Shown piece by piece: positions 52,949 to 57,900 of a stretch of DNA of 64,000 nt. A program made the position numbers and the translations under genes. The DNA lies in the NCBI GenBank assembly GCA_023091665.1, contig JALJCQ010000012.1, positions 1,426,001 to 1,490,000 of the forward strand, in the 5' to 3' direction. Numbering within the stretch: position 1 is the first letter of the stretch; each line of letters starts with the position of its first letter. This DNA is from Pythium myriotylum (Eukaryota > Oomycota > Peronosporomycetes > Pythiales > Pythiaceae). The notes under the pieces were generated by a model. The model had not been told where the DNA came from. It searched no databases and saw only the letters and a program-made list of their open reading frames with translations.

Positions 52949-54568
52949 TCAAATCGGCTCATCGCGTGGCTCCACGAGAATCTCGTTCACGGCAACAAAC
53001 GGCGGTTGCGTGACGGCGTAATGGACGGCTCGGGCGATGTCTTCGGGTTGGAGAACCTGGTAACCTACAGATAAGCATTGTAGATTATGTAAACCATGAG
53101 CTGAAGTGACACTGGACACTCTCGATAGTTGAAATACCTGACGGTGCCCCATACAGCTTCATTGCCTCCTCATCGACACCGCTCATGGTCTGTCCGTGCT
53201 GGACTAGGTCCGTTGCGACATTACCCGGCTAGAACACACACACAAACAGCAGTTAGATCAACAAGAGTGGACATCTTCGCGTGGCCCGTCTACCTGGATA
53301 CTAGTAACGCGAAGCCCAGAACCGACGTTCTCGAGACGAAGTGCCTGGGAGACACCTTCGACGAACATCTTGGAGGCCGAATACACGCCCAATCCAGGAA
53401 AAGTCTTGCGACCAGCGTCAGATGAAATGTTGACGATATGACCCGTCTTGCGCTCTAGCATTCGCGGCAGCACAGCAGCAATTCCGTTGAGCACGCCTTT
53501 GCAGTTGATATCGACGATCTAAAATGCACACGTAAGCTGCCATCGCTCAGATTTGAGGCACGGGTCGCCACTCACACGATCCCACGAGTCTTGATTGACA
53601 TTTCGCAAAAGCTCGAAGGGCATCACACCAGCTGCGTAACAAGCGCGTGAGCAAAATCCAATGATGGGGGGGGGGGGGGGGGTCCGGAAGATACCTACCG
53701 TTGTTTACGAGGATGTCGACATCACCAAACCGAGTGGTGGCAGCCTTGACGAGCTCGTGCAGCTAAGAACGAGCGCTGCATGTCAGCATCTCGACAGTGA
53801 TACGATTGGCAATGGTTCACTACGTACATCGTCACGCTTGGTAACGTCAGTCGCTTTGATGATAACATTGTCGGTGGATCCTGTCGCGGCGGCGATGGCG
53901 TCTCGTACTTCCTGCAACGCCGCCAAGCGACGCGCCCCTAGGGCCACCTTTGCACCACTACTAGCCAGTTTGGTCGCAATTGCAGCGCCGATGCCGCCAG
54001 AAGCCCCAGTGATCACAACGACTTTTCCTTCCAAAGATGTGAGCTCGGTTGAAGCCGACACGACTGCAGGCTTCGTTTCTGTCGCTGATTTCTTCGCCTC
54101 CTTCTTGACCTCTTTATCACTAGCCTTGCGCTTGGATCCGCTGGACGACGTCGGCGGCTTTGCTTCCGCCTTGGCAGGGTTGGGCTGCTGCGGCGATGCG
54201 GGTTTCTCCGTGGCGGCGCCGTCGCCCTCACTTGCCGTGGCCTCTTCGTCCTGCATGGAGCCGGCCGCGATCGCGGCCGCGCCGCTGAGTCCGTCCCAGT
54301 CCTTGTGGCGACTCTTGATGTGCTTCATGGCGTTGGACGTGTTGGAGATGCGGCAGAGCGCCTCCTCCCACTTGGCCGGGTCGTCGCGCGCCTTGACACA
54401 GAGCAGACAGATGTGCGTGAACGTCTTGGTGCCGCGCGCCACGGGCTTCTCGAGCGCGTGCACGCACTCCCACACCACGTGGCGCATGGCGGGCGGCCGG
54501 AAGTGCTTGACCGTCACCGGCAGCCCGTACGCGTCCACCTCCACGCCGTGCCGGAGGGAGCTCGTCAT
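52949..54568 (-). CDS. BED zinc finger fused to short-chain dehydrogenase
   Basis: Six exons: 54568-53828, 53762-53699, 53631-53576, 53518-53294, 53228-53138, 53064-52949, giving 430 aa. The first roughly 85 residues are a BED-type finger: an aromatic VVWECVHAL segment, CLLC, and a C-terminal NTSNAMKHIKSRH. A Lys/Ala/Ser-rich linker follows. A complete classical SDR occupies about 170-430: VVVITGASGGIGAAIA, DVDILVNN-AGVM (split by an intron), NISS serine, YSASK Tyr/Lys pair, PGNVATDL. All catalytic SDR residues are present. The BED finger suggests DNA or chromatin binding, so a nuclear dehydrogenase is inferred. The fusion is carried on a single exon 1 (53828-54568), so it is not an artefact of splice choice. 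Confidence 0.82.
53666..53682. repeat. 17-nt G homopolymer in intron
   Basis: An uninterrupted run of 17 G (poly-C on the transcript) lies inside the second intron of the BED-SDR gene. Such runs are prone to length polymorphism and sequencing error. Confidence 0.9.
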
Positions 54569-54628: not shown

Positions 54629-54690
54629 GGTTCCAGTTCAGGAACTGGAACCAATACCGTAATACGGTGGCGGAAAGCAAATACGGTATT
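54629..54690. promoter_or_regulatory. Palindrome-rich divergent promoter
   Basis: Within the 133-bp gap between the BED-SDR and dehydroquinase-like ATGs lie a 10-bp inverted repeat, GGTTCCAGTT (54629-54638) and AACTGGAACC (54643-54652) with a 4-nt loop, and next to it three ATACCGT/ATACGGT copies (54654-54690). These are likely protein-binding sites for a shared bidirectional promoter. Confidence 0.5.
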
Positions 54691-54701: not shown

Positions 54702-55725
54702 ATGCTTGGCGCGACCAAGATGAAGAGGGCAGTGGTCTATGCAGGCCGCGTCTCGCGCCTCGTGCGCCGGACGACGCGACCGAGCAGGCGAATCGACGCG
54801 CTGGCGCCCTGCAGATCGAGCGACGTGCGCTTTGCGGCGTCCGAGCGAGGCGGAGGGCTCCCTCGTGGGCTCAACACGAGCAATCCGTTCGAGATCAAAT
54901 TCCACACCGACGACGGCACTCCGCAAGCGGAGTTGAGCGCAGTCTCGACGGACATGGGGACGTTCGAAGATGAGATTGATCTGTTCCACTCGGGTGCGTC
55001 TCCTGTATGGACGCTGCAGTATGGGCATGGTGGAGCTAACAGAGATGCATGCAGAGATGGTTGACGTGTTCGGCTCAGAGCCTGAAGAGTATCGCGACGA
55101 CGGAACTCAACCTGCAAAGGCGCAGTCCAGCACTGACTATAGCTCTTCTGTCGAAGTCACGAGCGCGCAGGTGCAGAGCCAAAGTGACTTGCTTCCACCC
55201 TTGCGAGGCCAAGAGATCGAATCTCCACCTCCTACGCGTCCACGACCTCAGTCGGCGGGAAGTGCATCTATCGTTCTCATCCACGGGCCGTGCACGTATG
55301 TTCACGATGGATGGATTGGATCCAAGGACCGTTGGTCTCCCAAAGAAGTAGCATCCATGGTGAATCGCATCGCGCAGACCCACGGGCTGAGCATCTCGCA
55401 ACACCACTCCAACCACGAAGGTCAGATCCTCGATTGGCTGCTCAATACTTCGCCCGGCGACAAGATCGTGCTTAACTGGAACGGGCGGCTTGCGGACTCA
55501 CCCACTGTGTACCGTGCGCTCGCAAGTATCCGAGCCTTTGTGGTGATACTCGCCCCCTTGGACGTCGAGCTAGGCCCGCTTCCCCCGTCAGTCAAGGGCG
55601 TAATCGCAGGTATGTGAGCTTCTGGTGGCATGTGAGGCTGCTCGGATCTCTCACCATCGCATGGTCTGTGCTGGGCAGGATTCGGAACGCGGTCGTTGGA
55701 CTTGGCCATCCAGGCATGCAAGTGA
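54702..55725 (+). CDS. Type II dehydroquinase-like protein, probable pseudoenzyme
   Basis: Three exons: 54702-54993, 55055-55609, 55679-55725, giving 297 aa. The C-terminal 150 residues follow type II 3-dehydroquinate dehydratase (AroQ): SIVLIHGP, ISQHHSNHEGQILDWLL, KIVLNWNG and a final GVIAGFGTRSLDLAIQ, completed by the last 47-nt exon. Key catalytic features appear lost. The RxxxxY lid (normally GPNLNLLGxREPxxYG) is replaced by GPCTYVHDGWIGSKDRW, the THTS segment reads LADSP, and the HxRExFR segment is absent. The N-terminal 35 residues are Arg-rich and lack acids (MKRAVVYAGRVSRLVRRTTR), suggesting a mitochondrial presequence. The middle is disordered. It is likely not an active dehydroquinase; its role is unknown. 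Confidence 0.75.
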
Positions 55726-56394: not shown

Positions 56395-57900
56395 ATGGGC
56401 CGCAAGAAGATCAAGATCCAGCGCATCGAGGATGACCGCAATCGCCAGGTGACGTTCACCAAGCGCAAGGGGGGGCTTTTCAAGAAGGCCATGGAGCTCT
56501 CCAAACTCTGCGACTGCGAGATCGCGCTGATCGTGTTCGACTCGAACGAGAAGCTGTACCAGTATGCGAGCACGGGCGTGGACCAGATCCTGCTCAAGTA
56601 CACGGAGTATGGCGAGCCATACGAGATGAAGGACAACAACGATGTGAGTGACAGGCTCAGTGAGTAGCTGGACTAGTCCAAATTGCTAATGTGTTACATC
56701 GTGCTATAGTATGAGATCCTCTTTGGAGACAAGAAGAAGCCGAAGGACGCCACTGCCGAACCCCCGGCAAGCGCAAGCGCCAATCTCAAGGCACCTGGGT
56801 CTAGCGGCGGCAATTCCAAGAACAGCAAGGGTGCTACCGCCCACAATGCAATGGCGTTTGGATACAGTGGACTGGAATCTCCGGATGATCGTATGCTGCA
56901 CGGCAATATGCCGGCGAATGCGTCGCTCGGCCTCACAAACGATCCAGACCAATACAAGCTTAACAGCACGCGGAACGACCGGGATCGTCAAGCCAGTGGA
57001 TCCACCGGGAGCAATGGCGCGGCCCCGAAGAAGCGCGTACATCGAAGCTTTCAGCAACTTCTTAAGAAGGATCAGCAATCGTACATCCCGCCGTCGCTCC
57101 CCCTCTATCAGCAGGGTGTAAGTAGCCGTATTGCAAGCATCGTTGCATCTCAAGGACTAACGTGGAAGTGGAATTACTCCGCAGATGGGAATAATGAGTG
57201 GAATGTCGGCCCACCACATGCTGAGCGCCATGCCAAGTCCTCCAAACCTGTCCAGCATTCTTCCCTCGCCAACCAGTAAGGGCTTATTTTGATTGGCGTC
57301 AGCGGGTGTTTTTGTCTAACTCTCTTGCTCGATATAGCGAGCTTGTTGCTCCGCCACGATTTCAGTCCCCAGAATAGCGGCATGTTTGGCTCTCACCACT
57401 ATATGATGGGCCAACACGATCTCGGTGACAAGAACGGGTCGCTGGGTCTTAACCTGATGCCATCTGACTTCGGGCACACCTCCCAGATGAAGCAGCAGCA
57501 GCAGCCATACTACATGACACCGCGAGGATACTCACCGATGGGCAAATCCTCCAGTTATTGTGGAGGATCACCGGTTACATCGCCGCGAAGTAACGATCGC
57601 GACCGTGAGAGGATCCACGATCACGATCTGACTGAAGACAAGAGATCTGCACACCCGGAAGGTCGTCTAGACAGCAACGGAAAGACCACGAGAGATTTTG
57701 GCGAAAACTCCAGCAATTCGAAGGATTCAGTGAAGACCGAACGCCAGCTTGATCGATCGTCAGGTGGCCATGGCGAACGTTTACGAAGCCCTCACTCGGA
57801 CGAGTTGGACGATCTGAATGAAGTGAGGCTGGAGAAGAGGTCTCACTCCGAGTTTGACGACTCGGCACTTGCGCAGAAACGGCAGCGGATCGCTGTGTGA
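56395..57900 (+). CDS. MADS-box transcription factor, MEF2/SRF type
   Basis: Four exons: 56395-56643, 56710-57117, 57185-57275, 57338-57900, giving 436 aa. The MADS domain (residues 1-57) starts [20 protein letters not shown], continues with a [20 protein letters not shown] core and ends [17 protein letters not shown]. It is followed directly by a MEF2-like segment, [14 protein letters not shown], so the protein is closer to MEF2 than to SRF. The remainder is disordered, with Ser/Asn/Gly-rich and Met-rich segments ([15 protein letters not shown]) and a basic/acidic C-terminus containing KRQRIAV. MADS dimers bind CArG/MEF2 boxes. The start is the canonical MGRKK methionine. Confidence 0.9.

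Follow-up and report, generated by a model that had tools for sequence, protein, structure and literature searches.

A conserved oomycete pseudoenzyme of the type II dehydroquinase (AroQ) fold is encoded at positions 54702..55725 (+ strand) of a 64,000-nucleotide stretch of Pythium myriotylum DNA (contig JALJCQ010000012.1), referred to here as the window. Sequence, profile, and structure comparisons support a type II dehydroquinase fold that lacks its catalytic residues in each relative open to comparison. We consider it probable that the protein is a mitochondrial binding protein with no dehydroquinase activity, a type II dehydroquinase turned pseudoenzyme. The original prediction, made from the letters of the window, had described a gene at this location whose product kept the fold, lacked the catalytic residues, and might have taken a different job. 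The coordinates are borne out by a three-exon, 297-residue gene model and the core claim of a fold without catalytic residues stands, while the different job is a reasonable inference.

Four further proteins of the family were found. P0001, from a JGI metagenome, is 60% identical to the window protein and is partial, starting within the acidic block and ending at GVISGE. P0002 (Pythium oligandrum Poli38472_003923) is 41% identical. P0003 (P. insidiosum PINS_up001230) is a partial 165-residue model that stops at LNWNGA, and P0121 (Nothophytophthora sp. Chile5 BBJ28_00014899; 204 residues) shares GPC...W and SNHEG and skips the middle of the domain. P0002, P0003, and P0121 are uncharacterized proteins, and the homologues with their taxonomy would place the source of the window near Pythium. 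The window protein consists of a basic presequence-like segment (residues 1-57), an acidic block (58-112), a variable linker (113-162), and the AroQ-like domain (163-297); identity to P0002 in these four parts is 15/57, 27/55, 7/50, and 70/135, respectively. One protein search missed P0002 and P0003 despite the long identical words that they share with the query. Phytophthora, Globisporangium, and Saprolegnia were absent among the matches listed, including the best 120 of 261, which is no evidence that they lack the gene.

The resemblance of the domain to type II dehydroquinase is not chance. The spliced window protein, which contains both AroQ motifs pointed out originally (HSNHEGQILDWLL and GVIAGFG), matched the PF01220 (DHquinase_II) profile with 27.8 bits (E value of 2.3e-6), above the Pfam cutoff of 23.3. 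P0121 also scored above this cutoff (23.8), and P0001, P0002, and P0003 scored below it (17.1, 17.9, and 22.9). With the TIGR01088 aroQ equivalog, the window protein scored 23.3 bits, far under the NCBIfam cutoff of 169.85, and falls outside the equivalog. Conversely, a profile built from four family members, run against 5.77 billion database sequences, matched PF01220 proteins from an E value of 2.8e-6. The fold predicted by structure modeling is that of type II dehydroquinase, a flavodoxin-like α/β fold. The profile search and structure comparison that had been proposed for this gene both lead to the dehydroquinase family, and a viral fold library gave no match at an E value of ≤0.001. A search of prokaryote genomes yielded two loci, both alphaproteobacterial, and the one that was translated (L019) appeared canonical by eye.

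Residues are numbered as in P0004, a PF01220 protein whose numbering presumably fits that usual for the Mycobacterium tuberculosis enzyme, and we take the numbered residues to have the catalytic roles ascribed to them in type II dehydroquinases. The comparison set comprised the 117 proteins that, together with three family members, make up the best 120 of 261 profile matches, rather than a random PF01220 sample; the catalytic positions compared are retained in 116 or 117 of these 117 proteins. The table of catalytic residues covers four family members, three of them through the C-terminal part, with P0121 outside it. Asn12 is replaced by Cys in 4/4 members (5/5 when P0121 is added), and Tyr24 is lost in 4/4, with Lys, Gln, or Ser instead. 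Arg19 is replaced by Trp in 4/4, where the lid is hard to align, such that the Trp is approximate and the absence of Arg is firm. In the three members that reach the region, His81 is replaced by Ala, Glu99 and His101 are lost, and Arg108 and Arg112 fall in a deletion. Of the 38 columns with ≥95% identity across the 117 proteins, the window protein and P0002 both retain 13 and both differ at 20; the remaining 5 are changed in one of the two. The changed columns include Asn12 (Cys), Arg19 (Trp), Tyr24, His81 (Ala), Asp88 (Arg), Glu99, His101, Ser103, Arg108, Glu109, and Arg112, and those kept include Gly10-Pro11, SNHEG, Asn75, Ser83, Gly123, and Gly127.

Measured against AroQ (PF01220, TIGR01088), the family has lost Asp88 and residues by which a functional AroQ is recognized, both on the lid side (Tyr24, Arg19, and Asn12) and at His81, Glu99, His101, Arg108, and Arg112. 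In the alignment, the stretch after β4 is also shortened, and the window protein adds an N-terminal presequence-like segment and an acidic block. The missing Arg/Tyr lid and His/Arg motifs described from the window sequence are missing in every comparable relative over the regions covered, the P. oligandrum and P. insidiosum proteins included. The alignments, read by eye, also speak against catalytic residues that have merely shifted position, as the window protein, P0001, and P0002 have no domain tyrosine in common (Phe replaces Tyr179 in both P0001 and P0002 and replaces Tyr251 in P0002). The UniRef name of P0002 begins "3-dehydroquinate dehydratase," and, judged by its residues, the protein gives no support to the function that this name implies.

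The shikimate pathway appears to be served by another gene. In the genome searched (58.7 Mb, 55 contigs), an AROM-type gene has a single 1327-residue frame for 3-dehydroquinate (DHQ) synthase, 5-enolpyruvylshikimate-3-phosphate (EPSP) synthase, shikimate kinase, and type I dehydroquinase; directly downstream lies a frame for shikimate dehydrogenase. The His of the type I domain aligns, by manual count, with position 1179 of AROM chain 6hqv, and the Lys and a downstream Arg are kept; according to an excerpt of PMC9074039, H1179 of C. thermophilum AroM and Lys form the catalytic dyad. Excerpts of two other sources state that AROM runs the shikimate pathway of Plasmopara halstedii, like that of other oomycetes (PMC4594904), and present the AROM gene region of four oomycetes in a figure (PMC3130010). 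A canonical AroQ was not found in the genome with PF01220, in a search that was positive for the family in 7 of the 14 genomes used as controls and left the window gene itself unreported at an E value of ≤0.001, or with P0004 as the query, whose sole match was the window gene (E value of 4.7e-4); the search was exon-wise, with the best candidates scored, and a heavily split gene could escape it. A second AroQ-like gene was not found with the window protein, P0121, P0002, or P0004 as the query. Six weak paralogue candidates were dropped (E values of 0.14 to 2.43; 5/6 with an internal stop), the one of these that was read, on contig C33, showed nothing AroQ-like by eye, and a P0121 match on contig C1 (E value of 4.5e-6) was to its zinc finger and not to its AroQ-like part. 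With AROM present and no canonical AroQ found, the AroQ-like protein appears free from shikimate duty. The premise that fungi and oomycetes rely on AROM thus holds for this organism, with its AROM gene and retained type I His and Lys, but is too broad for fungi, since Candida albicans relies on the type II dehydroquinase Dqd1, as stated in the same excerpt of PMC9074039.

Several loops of the old active-site region have not drifted freely. All five known proteins contain GPC..W and SNHEG, four contain HSNHEG and LNWNG, and three contain RLADSPT. Between the window and P. oligandrum proteins, LNWNGRLADS and HSNHEG are identical, and chosen pocket loops are 29/41 identical versus 41/88 for the rest of the domain (P value of 0.013, from a single pairwise comparison of loops hand-picked by the analyst). 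Pocket loops that are more alike than the rest of the domain are unlike the product of simple decay and suggest a pocket that binds a new ligand or partner.

The N-terminus is basic and presequence-like, as originally noted: the first acidic residue of the window protein is residue 32, the net charge over residues 1-50 is +10, and the best 18-residue helical moment, 0.84, was reached by 19 of 5000 shuffled versions of residues 1-45. P0002 likewise has a presequence-like N-terminus (first acidic residue at 28; net charge of +7) followed by the acidic block. These features of the sequence suggest mitochondrial import of the window protein; unusual enzymes in mitochondria are reported for oomycetes in an excerpt of PMC5715807. 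The conserved acidic helix, which lies outside the domain, may serve for docking.

A plausible course of events can be proposed. A type II dehydroquinase has, by the structure model, kept its fold and has lost its dehydroquinase residues, and the AROM type I domain, which appears intact, takes care of the pathway step. Several of its active-site loops would then have been rewritten and held, giving a ligand- or partner-binding pocket of new specificity and not an empty scaffold. When first synthesized, the protein probably carries a mitochondrial presequence, and the acidic helix GTFxDEIDLFHxEMxxVFG would dock it onto another protein. A more specific proposal, which we offer tentatively, is that this is an oomycete family whose rebuilt pocket (Cys at 12, mostly His at 51, and WNGRLAD in the β3 loop) binds or converts a different small molecule in mitochondria, as a lineage-specific sensor or enzyme; in another oomycete, where a BED/C2H2-like zinc finger is attached to this domain, the fusion could link the ligand to nucleic acid binding.

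Several observations weigh against the binding-protein interpretation. Lid residues 182-192 have predicted local distance difference test (pLDDT) scores of <50 in the structure model built from the family only. The lid loop (9/15 identical) and the β4 loop (4/10) are less conserved, such that not all pocket loops are frozen, and the manual choice of loops mentioned above counts in the same direction. The presequence statistics of P0002 are weak, its moment of 0.54 being reached in 497 of 5000 shuffles. P0121 shares GPC..W and SNHEG with the family, but a zinc-finger-like N-terminus (zf-C2H2_4, 15.8 bits; cutoff of 27) replaces the presequence and acidic block, and Asp stands where other members carry His before SNHEG; this zinc-finger and AroQ-like protein may be either a genuine fusion or a gene model error. 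Finally, the family is known here from five members, three of them partial (P0001, P0003, and P0121).

Four other explanations were considered. It is unlikely, though worth keeping in view, that the protein is a new enzyme in which a rebuilt catalytic set (Cys and His where Asn12 and Gln51 once stood, the two Asn residues of LNWNG, and the Arg and Asp of GRLADS) acts on another small molecule, perhaps in mitochondria. The pocket loops do hold conserved polar or ionizable residues (the Cys in 5/5 proteins, LNWNG in 4/4, and RLADS in 3/3), but the sequence reveals no catalytic arrangement, the β4 loop that was once part of catalysis is shortened, and the pocket His is replaced by Asp in P0121. 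We also think it quite improbable that the protein is a purely structural subunit, for example, of a lineage-specific mitochondrial complex or ribosome, in which the oligomeric fold is kept and the pocket is irrelevant. The well-kept fold, the conserved acidic helix, and the presequence-like N-terminus would suit such a role; the identity of LNWNGRLADS and HSNHEG between the window and P. oligandrum proteins would be needless for a scaffold without a pocket. A decaying gene, a leftover AroQ made redundant by AROM and on its way to a pseudogene, would account for the catalytic losses and the small number of members found, but it is very hard to reconcile with a window gene whose frame is open and whose splice sites are in place, with blocks identical to those of P. 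oligandrum, and with replacements that recur across species (Asn12 to Cys in five proteins and His81 to Ala in three). That the protein is still an active dehydroquinase whose active site is unusual, as the retained Asn75, SNHEG, and GV(I/L)xG and the database name of P0002 might suggest, is scarcely credible with Tyr24, Arg19, His101, Glu99, and Arg112 all absent, no shared domain tyrosine, and AROM supplying the type I enzyme.

The gene model was obtained from inferred splicing. Exon 1 (54702..54993) begins at the ATG at 54702, with an in-frame stop 12 bases 5′ of it at 54690, and encodes the basic presequence and the first part of the acidic block (SNPFEIxF...GTFxDEIDLFH; overall consensus, SNPFEIxF ... 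GTFxDEIDLFHxEMxxVFG). Intron 1 (54994..55054; 61 nucleotides, GTGCGT...ATGCAG) was placed by splice signals and alignment with P0002. Exon 2 (55055..55609) holds the end of the acidic block (EMxxVFGxxPEE), the variable linker, and most of the AroQ-like domain (55249..55722), which is split by intron 2 (55610..55678; 69 nucleotides, GTATGT...GGGCAG). Exon 3 (55679..55725) encodes the domain end (GFGTRSLDLAIQACK) and the stop codon. All of these features lie on the + strand. Other splice choices, including longer frames of up to 319 residues, were set aside in favor of these introns because the splice signals are strong and the product aligns over its full length with P0002 and ends in the GFG...LA motif.

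A divergent neighbor lies at 53783-54568 (- strand), with 133 bp between the two ATGs. A BED zinc-finger-like segment (15.0 bits; cutoff of 20.6) and the beginning of a short-chain dehydrogenase domain (PF00106, 45.6 bits) share one frame there; two more frames on the minus strand, 53258-53461 and 52949-53152, resemble later exons of the gene, and a run of 17 G residues on the + strand (53666-53682) lies between frames of this gene. At L013:2048-2959 (+ strand; G000:C1:2387047-2387958), a BED-like finger (20.1 bits; cutoff of 20.6) shares one open frame with a 6-pyruvoyl-tetrahydropterin synthase domain (PF01242, 53.2 bits). With P0121 of Nothophytophthora, these make three cases in oomycetes of finger-like segments joined to metabolic-enzyme folds. 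A DNA-binding domain of the MADS (SRF) type (PF00319, 90.7 bits; 56395-56667, + strand) stands at the start of the downstream gene.

The original prediction knew of no described family of this kind, and, in agreement with this, targeted searches of the open-access literature found no described type II dehydroquinase-family pseudoenzyme among titles and abstract beginnings. A close likeness, from the excerpt of PMC9074039, is Candida albicans, a eukaryote in which the type II dehydroquinase Dqd1 accompanies an AROM protein, but there the roles are reversed: Aro1 has a dead type I domain and Dqd1 is the active enzyme, whereas here the type I His and Lys are kept and the type II relative is dead. 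A conserved pseudoenzyme alongside an apparently working type I pathway mirrors the situation in Candida. In a public database, one relative, P0002, is listed under a dehydroquinase name although it lacks the catalytic residues. The window protein looks lineage specific, and the identity of its putative ligand is a clear and tractable question; pseudoenzymes such as this one reveal how a metabolic fold gets redirected to other uses.
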